From the NCBI GenBank assembly GCA_017474385.1, contig JAFVHU010000081.1, positions 1-45,706 on the forward strand: 45,706 nt of DNA, given 5' to 3'. A program made the position numbers and the translations under genes. The stretch is from Afipia sp. Lineage in GTDB: Bacteria; Pseudomonadota; Alphaproteobacteria; Rhizobiales; Xanthobacteraceae. The notes under the pieces are model-generated. The model saw only the letters and a program-made list of their open reading frames with translations. It was not told the origin of the DNA and ran no database searches. Below, in pieces: positions 8,092 through 38,567 of this stretch. How positions within the stretch are numbered: the first letter of the stretch is position 1; the number at the start of each line of letters is the position of its first letter.

Positions 8092-10014
8092 CTAAATCGT
8101 GACCTGTGTTCCGACTTCCACCACGCGCCCGGTCGGGATTTGAAAGTAATCCGTGGCGTCGTTCGCCGAACGGCTCATGCTAATGAACAGGTGATCCTGC
8201 CAGCGCGGCATTCCGGACTGTGCGGCGGGCTTCAAGGCACGACGGGACAGAAAGAACGACGTCGACATGATGTCGAACTGCCAGCCGAGCTTGCGGGCAA
8301 TGGCGAGCGCTTTCGGAACGTTCGGCGACTCCATGAAGCCAAACTTGAGCGTGACCTTGGAGAACATCTCGCCGACATCCTCAAGCCGCACCCGCTCCGC
8401 GATATCCACGCGCGGCGTCGACGCGATCTCGATGGTGAGAATGACATTCTTCTGATGCAGCACCTTGTAGTGCTTCAGGCTGTGCATCAGTGCGGTCGGA
8501 GCATAATCCGGATTGCTGGTCAGAAACACGGCTGTGCCGGGTACGCGCTGCGGCGGCTTCTTCTCCAGCATCGTGATCAGATCGGTGAGAGGAATTTCCT
8601 GCCGGTGTGACTTTTCATAGAGCAGCCTGCTGCCGCGTCGCCACGTGTACATCAAAAGCATGACCGCGCCGCCAAGCGCCAGCGGCACCCAGCCGCCCTC
8701 GAAAACCTTGAGCAGGTTTGCCGTCAGGAACGTGAGGTCGATCGCGAGAAACGGCAGGATCAAAGCGGCCGCGGCGAGCGGTGACCATTTCCATACTTTC
8801 CAGATCACGACGAAACCCATCATCGCCGTGACCACCATCGTGCCTGTCACCGAAATTCCGTAGGCCGACGCCAATGAACTGGAGGAGCGAAACATCATGA
8901 CCAGCATCAGGACGCCAACGAGCAGCAGCGTGTTGACACGCGGAATATAAATCTGGCCCGAATGCGCTTCGGATGTGTGAGTGATCTCGAAACGCGGCAT
9001 CAGGCCTAGCTGAATGGCCTGCCGCGTCAAAGAATAGGCCCCCGTAATGACGGCCTGGCTCGCGATTACGGTCGCGACCGTTGCGAGCACAACCATCGGA
9101 ACCAACGCCCATTCAGGAAACATGAGGAAAAACGGATTCTCGATCGTGTGGGGATTGCCGATGACCAGTGCGCCCTGCCCGAGATAGTTCAGCGCCAGCG
9201 AGGGTAAAACCAAAAATAGCCATGCCGTCTGGATGGGACGTTTGCCGAAATGACCAAGATCAGCATAGAGCGCTTCGGCGCCGGTCACGGCGAGGAAAAC
9301 CGCGCCGAGCGTGATCAAACCAATGATCCCGTGATTGAGCAGGAATGAAACCGCATATGCGGGATTGAATGCGAGCAGCACGCTTGGCTGTTGTGCGATC
9401 AATGGAAGCGCCGCCCCCGCTATGACGGCGAACCAGATACACATGATCGGGCCGAAGAAAGCGGCGACGCGGGCCGTGCCGCGCGACTGGACCGCAAACA
9501 GCGCGAGAAGAATGAGAACCGTGATGGGCACAACGTAGTGGTCAAGCGCGGACGTGGCGAGCTTGATGCCTTCGACCGCAGACAACACCGACAGCGCCGG
9601 CGTGATGACCGCATCACCGTAGAAGAGCGCGCCGCTGATGATACCGAGCAAAACAACGATGCCGCCGCTGGTGCCCAGCGCGCGCTGCGCCAGCGCCATC
9701 AATGCAAGCGTTCCGCCTTCGCCGTTGTTATCGGCGCGCAGCAGGATCACGACGTATTTGAGCGTGACCACTACAATAAGGGCCCACAGAACTAGCGACA
9801 GCACGCCGAGCACGGCTTGCATGTTGGCCGTCGCGGCCGTCGCACCGGCGGCTGTCACTGCTTCCCGAAACGCGTACAGCGGGCTGGTGCCGATGTCGCC
9901 GTAAACAACACCGATACTTCCAAGCATCAGTCCCTTGAAGGATGCGGTGGAATGCGTCTCACCATGTCCATTTGCCGCCGGCGTCTCCGCCGCGGCTGAT
10001 GTCGTATCGGTCAT
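8092..10014 (-). CDS. kup: Kup family potassium uptake transporter (copy 1)
   Basis: 640-residue K+/H+ symporter of the KUP/HAK/KT family, an inner-membrane protein with about 12 hydrophobic spans followed by a C-terminal cytoplasmic domain. The N-terminal signature [20 protein letters not shown] is diagnostic. I start at ATG 10014 ([10 protein letters not shown]), which has GAGGCAA about 10 nt upstream; the longer frame adds a basic, poorly conserved leader. Its last ~65 residues are nearly identical to those of the second kup gene directly upstream, showing a tandem duplication. Housekeeping low-affinity potassium uptake is the usual role. Confidence 0.93.
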
Positions 10015-10098
10015 CAGGAAATTGCCTCGAAGTTCACTGCAAAATTGCAGCGCAGCAGGCCAATACTCCCGCGCTGTGCACATACGTTAGACTGTTTT

Positions 10099-10113
10099 CA
10101 TGCCATAGGCATG
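10099..10113. repeat. Short perfect inverted repeat between the kup genes
   Basis: CATGCC, a 3-nt loop, then GGCATG, flanked on both sides by TTTT. It lies in the 149-bp spacer between the end of kup copy 2 and the start of kup copy 1. The stem is only 6 bp and has no proper U-tract in the direction of transcription, so it is better viewed as a possible operator or weak structure than a terminator. Confidence 0.35.
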
Positions 10114-10163
10114 TTTTAACCGCATACACCAGCAATAGTTGTGATGGAATTTTGTCATATTAA

Positions 10164-12065
10164 TCAGATAGTTACCTGAGTTCCAACTTCCACCACGCGC
10201 CCGGTCGGAATCTGGAAATAGTCGGTGGCATCGTTCGCGGACCGGCTCATGGCGATGAACAGATGATCCTGCCACAGCGGCATGCCGGATTGAGCGGAAG
10301 GTTTTAGCGAGCGACGGGACACGAAAAACGACGTCGACATGATGTCGAACTGCCAGCCGAGCTTGCGCGCGATCGCCAGCGCCTTCGGCACGTTCGGCGA
10401 TTCCATGAAGCCGAAGGTGAGCCGGACGGTCGAGAACTTGTCGCTGATGTTCTCCATCCGCACGCGATCGGCCACATCAACGCGCGGCGTCTCGGCGGTG
10501 TGGATGGTCAATATGACGTTGTGTTCGTGGAGGACCTTGTTGTGCTTGAGGTTATGCAACAACGCAGTCGGAACGTATGCGGGATCGCTGGTGAGAAAAA
10601 CGGCGGTGCCCTTCACGATGTGCGGCGGCCGCTTTTCCAGACTCTTGATGAGATCGGTCAGCGGCACTTCCGTGCGCCGGGTCTTGTTGATGAGGATCAC
10701 GGCTCCGCGGCGCCATGTCCAGACCAGACCCGCCATCAGAATTCCGAACAACACCGGCACCCATGCGCCCTGAAGAAGCTTCAGGAGATTGGCGGTCAGG
10801 AACGTCAGATCGACAATCACCAAAGGTATGATCAGCGCGGCCGCAGTTGCAGCACGCCAGTTCCAGAGCTTCCAGATCACGACGAAGCACATAAGGCCGT
10901 CACAAACCATGGTCGTTGACACCGCGATGCCGTAGGCCGACGCAAGATTGCTTGACGAGCGGAACAGTCCGACAAGCAGCAGCACTCCGATCAGCAGCAT
11001 CACATTGACGCGCGGCAGGTAAATCTGCCCGGCGTGAGTCTCGGAGGTGTAGCGGACCTCGAACCGGGGCAGCAGTCCGAGCTGAATGGCCTGACGCACC
11101 AGAGAGAACGCACCGGTAATCACCGCCTGGCTGGCGATGACGGTTGCTGCCGTTGCAAGACAGATCAGCGGCACCAGCATGCTGTCCGGCACCATACGAT
11201 AGAATGGATTCTCGATAGCTTCCGGATGCGCGAGAACCAAAGCGCCCTGCCCGAAATAATTCAGCAGCAGGCACGGCAGAACGAAGTAGAACCACGCCGC
11301 CTGGATCGGCTTGCGGCCGAAGTGGCCAAGGTCGGCGTACAGTGCCTCACCGCCGGTCACGGCCAGAAACACCGCACCCAAAATCACCAGTCCTATGATG
11401 CCGTGTGTCAGCAAAAACTGGACGGCGAACACAGGGTTGATGGCGTGCACGATGCCGGGATCGTCGCTGATGTGCATCAGTCCCATCACGCCAAGGGTCA
11501 GGAACCAGATGATCATGACGGGGCCGAAGGCGCTGGCCACCATGGCGGTTCCACGGCTTTGCACAGCGAACAGACAGACAAGAATCACAATCGCCAGCGG
11601 AACGACATAGTGTTCGAGCGCCGGCGCGGCGATCTTCAGACCTTCGACCGCGGAAAGCACGGAAATGGCCGGCGTAATCATCGCGTCGCCGAGGAACATC
11701 GCTCCCCCGATCACGCCGAGCGCCAGGAGCAGCCAACTGCGCCGCCCCAACGCCCGCTGGCCGAGGGCCATCAGCGACAGCGTTCCGCCCTCGCCGTTGT
11801 TGTCGGCGCGCAGCAACAGCAGCACGTACTTGATGGTGACGACGACAATAAGCGACCAAAGGATCAGCGACAGAACGCCCAGCACGATCTCGCGTGAGAC
11901 GGGACCACCGTGGGTCGCGTTGTGGACAGCTTCACGGAAGGCATACAAAGGCGATGTGCCGATGTCGCCGAACACCACGCCGATGCTGCCAAGAGTAAGG
12001 GCCCAAAATCCGGTTGTTACCGGCACCTCTTGGGGCGTATCGGCGGATGTATCGCTGGCAGCCAT
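10164..12065 (-). CDS. kup: Kup family potassium uptake transporter (copy 2)
   Basis: 633-residue KUP transporter with the same N-terminal signature ([20 protein letters not shown]) and overall plan as its downstream neighbour. Differences cluster in the N-terminus and in some membrane spans, while the cytoplasmic tail is almost unchanged ([19 protein letters not shown] in both). The two genes are separated by 149 bp, enough for a separate promoter. Tandem kup paralogues are known in this bacterial group. Whether the copies differ in affinity or regulation cannot be told from sequence. Confidence 0.93.
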
Positions 12066-14102: not shown

Positions 14103-14987
14103 TCAGTTCAGCCGTGGCGGCCGATCGTCCTCAACGGGATCGGCGACGACGTTGAAATCCGCAGTCGCAGGACTTGAATAGCTCGGTTCGCTGCTCGTGG
14201 CGGCTGCCTCGCGCGCGCGGCGCTCGTGGGCGCGGTAGGATGCCCACCCGAGGGGAAGGCTCAACAAATAGATCAGCGAACCGCCGGTCAGAAGCTGCCA
14301 CGGATAGCTGATCAGAACGGCGATGAACAACACCACCAGCACGACGACCGGCAGAACCATATCCGGAGCGATCCTGCCGCCAATCATCTTGCCGGAGAAT
14401 ACCGGCAATCGCGATACCATCAGGAATGCGATCGACAGTGTGAACACCGCCGTAATCGGCGCCGGCAGTTGTGGCGCGCCGATGAACACCAGGTACATCG
14501 GCAGCAATACGCAAAGCGCGCCGAGCGGCGCCGGAACGCCGGTGAAGTAGTTCGCGGCGAAAGCAGGCTTGTTCGGATCGTCCATGGTAGCGTTGAAACG
14601 CGCCAGCCGCAGACCACCGCTGATCGCAAAGATCATCGCCGCGATCCAGCCGACGTTCTTCAGTTCATGCAACTGCCAGAAGTAGAGAATGAGCGCCGGC
14701 GCAACGCCGAAGTTGACGAAGTCCGCAAGGCTGTCGAGTTCCGCACCGAACCGGGACTGTCCCTTGATCATGCGGGCCACACGGCCATCGATGCCGTCGA
14801 GCACCGCGGCGAACACGATCGCCGCTAGCGCCAGTTCGTTGCGCCCTTCGATCGACAGCCGGATCGCGGTCAGACCCGCGCAGATCGCCAGCAACGTGAT
14901 GACGTTGGGCACGAGCATCCGGATCGGAATCTGGCGAAACCGGCGGCGGCGCAGATCAGGCGTTCTGGGATCGGAAGGCATGTCCAT
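14103..14987 (-). CDS. pssA: CDP-diacylglycerol-serine O-phosphatidyltransferase
   Basis: 294-residue membrane enzyme that makes phosphatidylserine from CDP-diacylglycerol and serine, the first committed step to phosphatidylethanolamine. The complete CDP-alcohol phosphatidyltransferase motif is present: Asp64, Asp67-Gly68, Ala71-Arg72, Gly81, Asp85 and Asp89. Several hydrophobic spans follow and the C-terminus is a hydrophilic tail. It lies downstream of psd on the same strand with 231 bp between, a spacer that holds a two-hairpin repeat (see 15041-15203). Type II (membrane) PssA is the form typical of alphaproteobacteria. Confidence 0.95.
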   Translation of the reverse strand: MDMPSDPRTPDLRRRRFRQIPIRMLVPNVITLLAICAGLTAIRLSIEGRNELALAAIVFAAVLDGIDGRVARMIKGQSRFGAELDSLADFVNFGVAPALILYFWQLHELKNVGWIAAMIFAISGGLRLARFNATMDDPNKPAFAANYFTGVPAPLGALCVLLPMYLVFIGAPQLPAPITAVFTLSIAFLMVSRLPVFSGKMIGGRIAPDMVLPVVVLVVLFIAVLISYPWQLLTGGSLIYLLSLPLGWASYRAHERRAREAAATSSEPSYSSPATADFNVVADPVEDDRPPRLN

Positions 14988-15040: not shown

Positions 15041-15203
15041 CTAGTATCCTGAATCCGAAGTTCGCCTGATTTTGCGGCGCGGTCCGGAGCGAACTTCGGA
15101 TTCAAAAGGACACTAGAATCATGATTCTAGTGTGGTTTTTGTTCGCAAGTCCGCAAATGAACGTGCTGAGAAAACATTGCGGACTTTCGAACCACCACAC
15201 TAG
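15041..15203. repeat. Two-hairpin dispersed repeat, copy 1
   Basis: 163-bp element made of two consecutive imperfect palindromes. Hairpin A pairs 15041-15065 with 15089-15116: both arms hold GAATCCGAAGTTCGC (or its complement), and the outer CTAGTRTCCT arms pair with a 3-nt bulge. Hairpin B pairs 15127-15157 with 15177-15203 through CTAGTGTGGT and AAGTCCGCAA. The junction 15110-15133 is a separate 24-bp perfect palindrome. A second copy with compensatory differences is at 30338-30502. It lies 15 bp downstream of the psd stop and 53 bp upstream of the pssA start. No open frame or transposase is inside; a REP/BIME-like or MITE-like element is the nearest class, by structure only. Confidence 0.85.
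15110..15133. repeat. 24-bp perfect palindrome at the hairpin junction
   Basis: The half-site ACACTAGAATCA is followed immediately by its exact reverse complement. It is built from the right end of hairpin A and the left end of hairpin B of the repeat at 15041-15203. In the second copy the equivalent centre is degenerate (ACACCAGAAA then TTTCTAGTGT with a short spacer), so half-arm symmetry is retained but not base identity. Confidence 0.8.
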
Positions 15204-15218
15204 TGATCGCGGGCTTGG

Positions 15219-15917
15219 TTAATCCACCCGGTAGCTGCGGCCGCCGTCGCCGAGCTTGAAATCGGCCAGCACCGTTTCACCGGCGATGGCCGTCTGGCCT
15301 TCCGACACCAGAGCCTTGGCCCCTTCGGGCAGGAATACGTCGAGCCGCGAGCCGAAGCGGATGAGCCCGAAGCGCTCCCCCGCCCCGAGGACCTGGCCCT
15401 CTTTCACGAAAGACACAATGCGGCGGGCCACCAGCCCGGCAATCTGGATGACCCCGATACGGCCAGCCGGCGTCGAAATGACCAGTGAGTTGCGCTCGTT
15501 GTCTTCGCTCGCCTTGTCGAGATCGGCATTGAGGAATTTTCCGGGGCGATAGGCGATGCGGTCGATACGTCCAGCCACCGGGCTGCGGTTCACGTGGCAA
15601 TCGAACACGCTCATGAAGATCGAGATACGCGGCAGCGGCTTGTCGCCGAGACCGAGTTCAGCCGGCGGCACGGCCTGCACCACCATCGAGACGCGGCCAT
15701 CGGCCGGCGACACCACGATGCCTTCACGCACCGGCGTTACCCGTACCGGGTCGCGAAAGAACAGCGCGCACCAGACCGTGAGTGCAGATCCGATCCAGCC
15801 CAGCGGCGTCCAGATCCAGAACAGGATCAGACTGGCGAAGGCAAAAGCCCCGATGAATGGGTAGCCTTCCGGATGGATCGGCGGAATTTGGTCGCGAATG
15901 GACTTAACGACGGACAT
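15219..15917 (-). CDS. psd: Phosphatidylserine decarboxylase, short PSD-A type
   Basis: 232-residue pyruvoyl-dependent decarboxylase converting phosphatidylserine to phosphatidylethanolamine at the inner membrane. Two N-terminal hydrophobic segments (about residues 22-55), VVSPADGRV near 68-76 and [10 protein letters not shown] are visible. The self-cleavage site is Gly189-Ser190 in RFGSRLDVF, generating the alpha subunit with its pyruvoyl group. Length matches the short bacterial/archaeal form. It starts 34 nt after the Atm1-like exporter stop on the same strand and precedes pssA, so exporter, psd and pssA may be one transcript. Confidence 0.94.
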
Positions 15918-29807: not shown

Positions 29808-30314
29808 TTAGATTTCCTTGCCGCGCTTCTTCATTTCAGCACGAAACTTGCCGTTGATTTCTTCGCCGAACTTCTGCGCCCACTGGTCCATATATTGGCG
29901 GGCGGTGTTGAATGCCACCGGCTCTTGCGCGATCACCTTGACGCCAAGCGGCGACTTGTAGAACGCGGCGAGCTCCTTCAGCTCCTGTTCGGTAAAGGCG
30001 GTGGCGTAAATCTTCGCCATTTCCTCGCCGATTTCCTTTTCGCGGCCGGCGAGATCCTTCGCGACCTGAACGGCAACCTCGTTGAGGTCCTTCTGGTAGT
30101 TCAGGTTGGACTGCAACAGCACGTCCTTGGTCCGCTGCACGAGACCGGGAACAGCGCCCTGATAGATCGCGCTGACATTCTTGGATGTCAGGATTTCTTT
30201 CGCATAGCCGATGGCGGCGGGGGACGGCGGCTTCGGAGCCTGCGCCACCGCGCTGCCCAGCATCAGGCCCAGCGCTGCGCCTGCCGCGAGCAGAACGTTC
30301 GAAAACTTCCTCAT
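29808..30314 (-). CDS. Exported DUF2059 family protein
   Basis: 168-residue protein with a signal peptide (MRKFSNVLLAAGAALGLMLG, cleavage near AVAQA). The mature part is the helical DUF2059 domain: RTKDVLLQSNL, then FTEQELKELAAFYKSPLG, the family hallmark. Function of DUF2059 is unknown; periplasmic location inferred. ATG 30314 has an excellent GAGGAG 7 nt upstream. The longer frame to 30377 starts inside the dispersed repeat and is rejected. The element at 30338-30502 ends 23 bp before this start, so the promoter, if separate, must involve or precede it. Confidence 0.86.
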   Translation of the reverse strand: MRKFSNVLLAAGAALGLMLGSAVAQAPKPPSPAAIGYAKEILTSKNVSAIYQGAVPGLVQRTKDVLLQSNLNYQKDLNEVAVQVAKDLAGREKEIGEEMAKIYATAFTEQELKELAAFYKSPLGVKVIAQEPVAFNTARQYMDQWAQKFGEEINGKFRAEMKKRGKEI

Positions 30315-30337
30315 ATCAATTCTCCTCAATTGCGGCC

Positions 30338-30502
30338 CTGGTGTCCGGAATTCGAAGTTCGCCTGCACTTGCTGCACTCTCCTAGCGAACTTCGAATTCC
30401 AGAGGACACCAGAAACCTATGATTTCTAGTGTGGTTTGGTTCAGAAGTTCTCTGGTGGAGATCGCAGCAAAGCACAAGAGAACTTCTGAACCACCACACT
30501 AG
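30338..30502. repeat. Two-hairpin dispersed repeat, copy 2
   Basis: 165-bp element with the same plan as the copy at 15041-15203. Hairpin A pairs 30338-30362 with 30385-30412: arms hold GAATTCGAAGTTCGC, where copy 1 has GAATCCGAAGTTCGC, and the opposite arm changes to match; outer arms CTGGTGTCC/GGACACCAG also covary. The same 3-nt bulge sits on the same side. Hairpin B pairs 30426-30453 with 30477-30502 through CTAGTGTGGT and GGTTCAGAAGTTCTCT. The right end CTAG contains the TAG stop of rpiA (- strand). Orientation relative to neighbouring genes is the same as in copy 1. Confidence 0.85.
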
Positions 30503-31197
30503 CGCCGTTCAACAACGCGAATACCCTGAGGGCCTGCGAGCACAGCCGTCCGTGCAAGACCGATAAACAAGCCGTGCTCCACCACGCCAGGAATCGAATT
30601 CAATGCTGCCGCCAGTCTGGGGGAATCCGGTATCCGCCCAAGATGGGCATCGATAATCCAGTGGCCGCCATCGGTGACGAAAGCATGGCCATCCTTGGCC
30701 TTGCGGATATCCATTTGTCCGGAAACGCTATTTTCAGCAAAGGCCGTCTCGATGGCTCGGCGGGTCGCTCCCAGGCCAAACGGGATGACTTCGATCGGAA
30801 GCGGGAAGCGCCCGAGGGTCGGAACCCATTTAGACTCATCCGCGATCACAATCATCCGGTCGGACGCCGCCGCGACGATCTTTTCGCGCAGCAAGGCTCC
30901 GCCGCCACCCTTGATCAGTTCGAGATTCGGATCGATTTCGTCTGCGCCGTCCACGGTAAGGTCGAGCCGGTCGACCTCTTCCAGCGTTATCAGAGGCACA
31001 CCGCAGCGCTCGGCATCGGCACGCGTCGCCTCCGATGTCGGGACGCCGACGATCTTCAGACCCGCCTGCACGCGCTCGCCCAGAAGCTCGACGAAGTGCT
31101 TGGCCGTTGACCCGGTGCCAAGACCAAGCTTCATGCCGTCCCGCACCTGCTCGACCGCGCGCGCCGCCGCCTGCCTCTTCAGATCGTCCATCGACAT
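30499..31197 (-). CDS. rpiA: Ribose-5-phosphate isomerase A
   Basis: 232-residue isomerase interconverting ribose 5-phosphate and ribulose 5-phosphate. Motifs are [11 protein letters not shown] (about 25-35), TVDGADEID (81-89) with the catalytic-site aspartates, and [11 protein letters not shown] (96-106). Start ATG 31197 has GAGGG just upstream; ATG 31191 is a possible alternative. A much longer frame reaching 31989 is out-of-frame sequence opposite gph. Its TAG stop is furnished by the end of the dispersed repeat. Divergent from gph over 162 bp. Confidence 0.93.
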
Positions 31198-31359
31198 CGT
31201 ACCCTCGACGCTTCGTTCCCGTGGAACGCGAGGCATATAGCGCGGTTTCCGCGGCGGTGGATACGGCCTTGGGGCTGAAAAACGGCCAAAAAGGGCGGAC
31301 ATAATACCAATCCCGCCGCGGCCCTTGCATGATCCGGCTTCGCCCGCTAGCGATCCGCC

Positions 31360-32046
31360 ATGACCTCCTCCCCCCTTATTGTCTTCGATCTCGACGGCAC
31401 TCTTGTCGATACGGCCCCCGATCTGGTCGGCGCGCTGAATTTCGTGCTCCAGCGCGAGGGGCTGCCACTCGTACCGGTTGCATCCGCGCGCACGATGATC
31501 GGCGCGGGCGCGCGAAAGCTGATCGAGCGCGGGCTCGAACTCGATGGCCGCGCCATGAGCGTCGCGGACATCGACCGTTTGACCGACGACTTCATCGCCT
31601 ACTACAGGAATCATATCGCCGACGCCTCCAAGCCGTTTGAAGGTCTCTACGCAGCCCTCGACGAACTGGAGGGACGCGGTTTCAGGTTCGCCATCTGCAC
31701 CAACAAGCTGGAGGGGCTTTCTAAGCTCCTGCTCGCCGAACTGGATATGACGAAGCGCTTTGCCGCGATTTGCGGTGCCGACACATTCGGTGTGGCTAAG
31801 CCGGACCCGACCATCCTGCGCCAGACCATTGCCCGCGCCGGCGGAGACGTTTCCAGATCGATCATGGTCGGCGATTCCGGCCCGGACGTCGGGGTTGCAC
31901 GCCGGGCCGGGATTCCGGTAATTGGGGTCAACTTCGGCTACACCGAGATTCCCATCGCGGAACTGAAGCCCGACATTGTCATCGGTCATATGCGGGAACT
32001 GCCGCGAGCCGTGGAAAATCTAGCGGCAGCCTTTGCAAGTCACTGA
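31360..32046 (+). CDS. gph: Phosphoglycolate phosphatase (HAD family)
   Basis: 228-residue haloacid dehalogenase-type phosphatase. The nucleophile motif is [11 protein letters not shown] with Asp10 and Asp12; the later motifs are ICTNK near residue 113 and [16 protein letters not shown] near 168. A helical cap between motifs I and II and the family length support Gph, which removes 2-phosphoglycolate. Other small-phosphate substrates cannot be excluded. Divergent from rpiA, another sugar-phosphate gene. Confidence 0.88.
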
Positions 32047-36084: not shown

Positions 36085-37335
<1,251 letters not shown>

Positions 37336-37349
37336 TCAGTCGAACGAAA

Positions 37350-38567
<1,218 letters not shown>

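Follow-up and report, generated by a model that had tools for sequence, protein, structure and literature searches.

A dispersed family of MITE-like two-hairpin repeats in Afipia and related Xanthobacteraceae

The window analysed here, i.e., the whole stretch of 45,706 nucleotides from an Afipia genome, holds two copies of a small repeat, each made up of two hairpins (A and B) separated by a spacer. Copy 1 lies between psd and pssA and copy 2 between rpiA and a gene for a DUF2059 protein. The features are as follows.

14103..14987, minus strand: CDP-alcohol phosphatidyltransferase gene (pssA; PF01066), downstream neighbour of copy 1
15041..15116, plus strand: copy 1, hairpin A, arms CTAGTATCC-TGAATCCGAAGTTCGC / GCGAACTTCGGATTCA-AAA-GGACACTAG
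15117..15126, no strand: copy 1, spacer, AATCATGATT
15127..15203, plus strand: copy 1, hairpin B, an inverted, diverged relative of hairpin A with the bulge on the 5' side
15219..15917, minus strand: phosphatidylserine decarboxylase gene (psd; PF02666), upstream neighbour of copy 1
29808..30377, minus strand: ORF of a DUF2059 protein (PF09832), downstream neighbour of copy 2
30338..30412, plus strand: copy 2, hairpin A, arms a compensated variant
30413..30425, no strand: copy 2, spacer
30426..30502, plus strand: copy 2, hairpin B, inner arm GTTCAGAAGTTCTCT replacing GTTCGCAAGTCCGC
30499..31989, minus strand: ORF with ribose 5-phosphate isomerase A (rpiA; PF06026), adjoining copy 2

The sequence-only reading had placed two elements with the same order of hairpins at 15041-15203 and 30338-30502, and both the coordinates and the order were borne out; folded as single-stranded DNA, copy 1 reached a z of -8.69 and copy 2 of -12.08, and 0 of 200 shuffles folded as well in either case. 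Both copies have the 3-nt bulge of hairpin A on its 3' side and arms with CTAG-like feet, and the compensated arm changes that had been reported are correct (GAATCC/GGATTC vs. GAATTC/GAATTC; CTAG/CTAG vs. CTGG/CCAG). The statement that the hairpin B arms differ almost completely was too strong, as the outer CTAGTGTGGTTT is identical between the copies and the inner part alone differs. The TAG stop of the rpiA ORF falls within the terminal CTAG of copy 2. The DUF2059 ORF as listed, with a GTG start, extends into copy 2, and our own gene-calling script puts the start 23 nt outside. Elsewhere in the window, two pairs of adjacent paralogous stretches with about 75-81% DNA identity were seen on the minus strand (8092-12065 and 36085-38534).

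As had been proposed from the two copies, the genome was searched with a covariance model, R1, which was built from 30 copies. At least 71 distinct full-length copies were recovered among the best 150 of 1408 candidates, while BLAST with copy 1 gave at least 40 distinct places, 38 of them over at least 150 nt, among the best 40 of 69 candidates. Nearly all of the 71 copies are 163-169 nt long (four are shorter, 136-161 nt) and no gene lies inside. The general plan is hairpin A, a short AT-rich spacer and an inverted, diverged hairpin B, about 165 bp altogether, with both bulges facing the centre. In the 30 copies the consensus of hairpin A is CTAGTGTCC-YGAATCCGAAGTTCGC / GCGAACTTCGGATTCR-AAA-GGACACTAG, that of the spacer about AAATTATAATT, and that of hairpin B CTAGTGTGGT-TTT-GGTTCGCAAGTCCGC / GCGGACTTGCGAACC-ACCACACTAG. 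The stems have a median of 26 paired positions with CTAG feet, and at least one compensated change occurs in 17 of 47 pairs. Several groups of copies keep the plan, the bulges and the CTAG feet with other arms (e.g., CTAGTGATCC..GGTTCTGACATTCGTA, CTAGTGGAG..GGATTTGACATTCGC and copy L231). Where a foot is not CTAG, an exactly complementary inner partner matches it in 19 of 31 cases for the A end and in 19 of 33 for the B end. The two ends were told apart by the better-scoring strand of R1, which is arbitrary for copies with two A-like hairpins (e.g., L102). A kissing interaction of the two loops was considered, loop A being similar to the reverse complement of loop B, and was rejected because 1518 of 2000 shuffles reached the likeness observed within the same copies (68 copies).

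The repeat is widespread among related bacteria of the soil as well. R1 matched all 25 genomes searched from the genus, 82 of 149 sampled genomes of the family in 32 of 47 genera (best 19 candidates per genome), and 0 of 16 genomes from other families of the order. Genome G159 holds at least 150 distinct copies and G012 at least 26, and 11 places were found within the 2.0 Mb examined of G014, the closest relative (strands merged). The matches listed by a pattern scan for hairpin A came from Afipia, Nitrobacter, Bradyrhizobium, Pseudolabrys, Rhodoplanes, Hyphomicrobium and others, including many MAGs, one record labelled Acidobacteria and one Devosia. In the plasmid collection, only seven Roseibium/Labrenzia records matched, with one copy each, and the phage records gave no match to the repeat.

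Comparison of the same sites among genomes showed that a site filled in one genome can be vacant in others. The psd/pssA site is filled in 2 of the 27 genomes having it (our genome and G018), and the rpiA/DUF2059 site in 2 of 29 (our genome and G008), with short remnants seen by eye in G001, G013 and G186; a search of 56 loci at both sites with R1 found full copies only in the four filled ones. When the 71 copies were compared with G014, both flanks could be joined for 34, and 28 of these sites had no full copy, one of them with a remnant. The remaining six had a gap of more than 120 nt, and four of them were shared copies by alignment. At the site of copy L017 in G014 (contig C10, near 210569), the 5' arm of hairpin A alone remains, the remaining element having been deleted.

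The junctions left at the sites in G014 without a full copy carry CTAG in 6 of 28 cases, where the frequency of CTAG between genes would give about 0.55 (Poisson, 2.5e-5); relative to the number predicted from composition, CTAG is depleted about 11-fold. On the other side stand the remaining 22 junctions, of which five differ from CTAG by one letter, as judged by eye, and the others are not CTAG-like or poorly aligned. At several sites without a copy, one CTAG stands in place of the CTAG-like sequences that bound the copy on either side at the filled site. In 16 of 71 copies of our genome, the TAG stop of a neighbouring gene lies inside the terminal CTAG, as it does in 27 of 91 from other species and in 6 of 19 from G159, G182 and G091; for comparison, 109 of 644 CTAG in G014 coincide with a TAG stop. 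In G182 (L407, contig C238) two copies, 935-1099 and 1096-1260, stand in direct tandem with one common CTAG, an arrangement that would result if the end of one copy had been the target of the next. Therefore, the junctions, the overlap with stops and this tandem together indicate insertion at CTAG, although duplications of 2 and 4 bp are indistinguishable because CTAG is palindromic. An attempt to read the target duplication from the outer tetranucleotides was abandoned, as the 22 copies with both feet other than CTAG gave five direct and five inverted repeats and thus no signal. Of the options raised by the sequence-only reading, a MITE-like element mobilised in trans is the one that gains support, from the many sites, the empty sites, the CTAG target and the gene-free interior.

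Under this explanation, a transposase acting in trans would move the copies, most likely one of the IS630 (Tc1/mariner) type, whose target is TA, preferably within CTAG. An IS630 relative is described as inserting at TA and doubling it, and a title cited in the same source speaks of a preference of IS630 for the TA in CTAG (as far as the excerpt of PMC2170065 goes). A 1.47-kb IS630 element is present in our genome (L439, contig C37, 1355-2827; NF033545, E 1e-72), whose inverted ends CTAGTGGTTCATCACAGTGATT are alike in 24 of 25 letters and have CTAG on both sides, like the repeat. By eye, the repeat agrees with these ends in CTAGTG and, at most, over about 10 nt, after which the likeness stops. 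Weaker ends, CTAGAGCGG (14 of 18), were seen at another locus of the genome, L436. An IS630-type transposase is the best, though unproven, candidate for the mover. Against it stand the shortness of that likeness and the complete genome G012, in which neither Y1_Tnp nor DDE_Tnp_1 nor DDE_3 gave a match. DDE_Tnp_1 matched eight times in our genome, five in G018, four in G182, two in G159 and none in G012; for DDE_3 the numbers were three in our genome, eight in G018, one (short) in G159, and none in G012 and G182. No larger element ending in these hairpins was found in our genome, where every partial match overlaps a full copy (best 150 of 1408 candidates), and no two single-hairpin matches lay 0.5-5 kb apart in four complete genomes (best 150 candidates per genome). 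Full copies occurred in two of 34 transposase loci (L421 and L423), none bracketing the transposase as its ends.

Another way of moving would be that of REP/BIME-type elements, in which a RAYT, i.e., a Y1 HUH transposase, reads the feet of hairpins in single-stranded DNA. Inverted pairs of palindromes between genes would fit, and the co-variation of the feet with their inner partners is what guide pairing would give. However, Y1_Tnp (PF01797), which occurs in 3 of 29 genomes of the genus, had no match in our genome (84% complete), G014 or the copy-rich G159 and G012; the stems of about 26 paired positions contrast with those of 5-13 bp (GTAG) and 8-9 bp (CGTC) given for REPs in the part of PMC3733652 consulted; and by eye the target resembles now the A foot and now the B foot, with no target polarity seen. 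The REP/RAYT option of the sequence-only reading was therefore not supported, and we regard it as very improbable. A further possibility is transposition that depends on the hairpins as the recognised feature, carried out by another kind of enzyme. The groups of copies in which arms were replaced while plan, bulges and CTAG feet were kept would agree with it, as would the co-varying feet and the absence of all three transposase families from G012. The lack of target polarity speaks against it, and the transposase searches covered these three families; all in all it appears unlikely.

Palindromic intergenic repeats have been recognised in several bacteria, and RIME (Rhizobium intergenic mosaic elements) and the Bru-RS palindromes are examples from Hyphomicrobiales, RIME consisting of two large palindromes. 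The present repeat resembles both in being an intergenic palindrome of that order. The CIR (Caulobacter CcrM-associated intergenic repeats) of alphaproteobacteria are about 110 bp long with GANTC at the terminal loop (PMC2229807, in part). According to this partial description, they share with our repeat the dispersed, intergenic, alphaproteobacterial occurrence, two long inverted repeats corresponding to two arms and a linker, and TA ends, but differ from it in length (about 165 bp here) and in the position of GANTC, which occurs in 54 of our 71 copies and is centred in the loop in 6. RUP of pneumococcus and the Correia elements are IS630-linked MITEs, and RUP was proposed to be mobilised by IS630-Spn1 (PMC2229807, in part). 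They are likewise small, palindromic and gene-free with TA at the ends; however, as described there, they form one end-to-end stem instead of two separate hairpins, and the likeness of the resident IS630 ends to our repeat extends over about 10 nt. The GTAG and CGTC REPs of Bradyrhizobium and Rhodopseudomonas (PMC3733652, in part) are also palindromes, often in inverted pairs and in the same bacterial family, but the account describes a short stem with a GTAG or CGTC tag, whereas here a long stem stands on CTAG feet and genomes rich in copies lack the Y1 transposase. The element behaves as a MITE targeting TA/CTAG would, stands next to CIR by its plan, and is not a REP.

The pairing of the arms is kept across the copies compared, as the sequence-only reading had expected of further copies; neither of the outcomes that would have refuted that reading, a lack of other copies or a loss of pairing in them, was seen. 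In 169 copies from our genome and others, 8253 of 8506 arm positions (97.0%) are Watson-Crick pairs; this set comprises the copies of at least 155 nt from our genome, 83 of the 91 from named species (eight lower-scoring ones were dropped) and 16 from G159. Among the mismatches, 100 are of the transversion type, 88 are A-C and 65 G-T (p = 0.07 for unequal A-C and G-T). The 16 G159 copies have nearly identical arms and variable loops (pairwise difference 2.5% in stems, 18% in loops), and the ratio of stem to loop differences among copies is 0.19 in our genome and 0.14 in G159. Ten pairs of copies at the same site were also compared, some of which could be independent insertions, above all copy 1/G018 and copy 2/G008 with their patchy presence. 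In these pairs, 48 of 938 stem positions and 86 of 670 loop positions are changed (p = 5e-8), a stem rate of 0.4 times that of loops. Of their 41 changed pairs, 24 are broken, 10 became G-T and 7 are compensated, where the stem rate would predict about 0.4. The four pairs with G014 alone show no difference (stems 14/376, loops 13/268); they had suggested that stems decay in place as fast as loops, an idea dropped with the ten pairs.

The slower change of stems and the seven compensated pairs could possibly reflect a structured RNA, if the copies were transcribed and the hairpins acted in mRNA as a terminator, RNase III site or stabiliser, and the intergenic position of the copies (1 of 71 overlaps a called gene) would be in agreement. 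However, constraint on an RNA strand should spare G-U and the mismatches show no such preference, so that the pairing constraint points to DNA. Moreover, most changed pairs were simply broken, presence at the same site is patchy across species, and no Rfam model matched the window at the gathering score or any of four loci when E values up to 1 were allowed. The structured RNA, which had been among the main options, is therefore disfavoured and seems to us improbable. Pairing at the level of DNA, as part of the MITE-like explanation, would be upheld if the ends or hairpins are recognised when a copy moves, if one arm is repaired from the other, or both, leaving the letters of the arms free to change while pairing holds. 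The data read as pairing enforced mainly during the making of copies, plus some repair or selection in place.

The position of the copies relative to genes was determined with our own gene-calling script for 71 copies of our genome, 91 of named species and 19 of G159, G182 and G091, leaving out partial and end-cut matches, second copies per locus and the G182 tandem pair. The neighbours in our genome are tandem or divergent in 47 and 21 cases, or 48 and 20, depending on the version of the script. Convergent neighbours occur for 1 of 71 copies there, compared with 43 of 335 intergenic CTAG sites in G014; this scarcity is confined to our genome (12 of 91 in other species, 4 of 19 in G159, G182 and G091).

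Two observations go beyond the sequence-only reading: the A end is turned towards close start codons, and its outward sequence is Shine-Dalgarno-like. Of the 31 start codons at most 10 nt from an end, 27 have the A end facing them (p = 3e-5), or 25 against 4 for the B end when two repeated sites are left out (p = 1e-4). Starts from -10 to +15 nt of an end were found for 17 copies of our genome, 19 of other species and 2 of G159, G182 and G091, and the ratios of A to B were 15:2, 13:6 (weaker) and 1:1, respectively. Between tandem genes, the A end points to the downstream gene in a ratio of 31:17 in our genome (p = 0.06), 34:13 in the others (p = 0.003) and 6:7 in G159, G182 and G091; in this last, small set the orientation bias is thus absent. 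Read outwards, the A end is mostly AGGACACTAG or GGGACACTAG, with AGGAC or GGGAC, and 4 of the 9 B-end cases keep their own GAGG or GGAGG ahead of the start. The A end is thus a predicted ribosome-binding site that may be portable, as judged from its letters and orientation; copies just before a start codon would survive mostly with the A end towards the gene because that end would supply the site.

Based on the results of this study, both elements of the window probably belong to one family of small, non-autonomous, MITE-like DNA, for which we infer an IS630-type mover, pairing at the level of DNA and a ribosome-binding site at the A end. A bolder version, to which we give little credence for now, is that the moving machinery reads the paired shape of the hairpins and not their letters, with arms that are replaceable while each hairpin pairs and feet that co-vary with their inner partners, in genomes rich in copies yet without the usual transposase families, and that one end has turned into a portable ribosome-binding site by which insertions survive at the stop/start junctions of operons. 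No description of this repeat family was found in the open-licence literature, and yet it reaches 71 to at least 150 copies per genome in parts of Xanthobacteraceae and also occurs in Hyphomicrobium and on Roseibium plasmids. With many insertions that have empty counterparts, and arms that differ and still pair, it offers a good set for studying how the pairing of palindromes is kept up in bacteria. The orientation bias at start codons suggests, moreover, how a small element may settle within an operon and leave the gene after it active.
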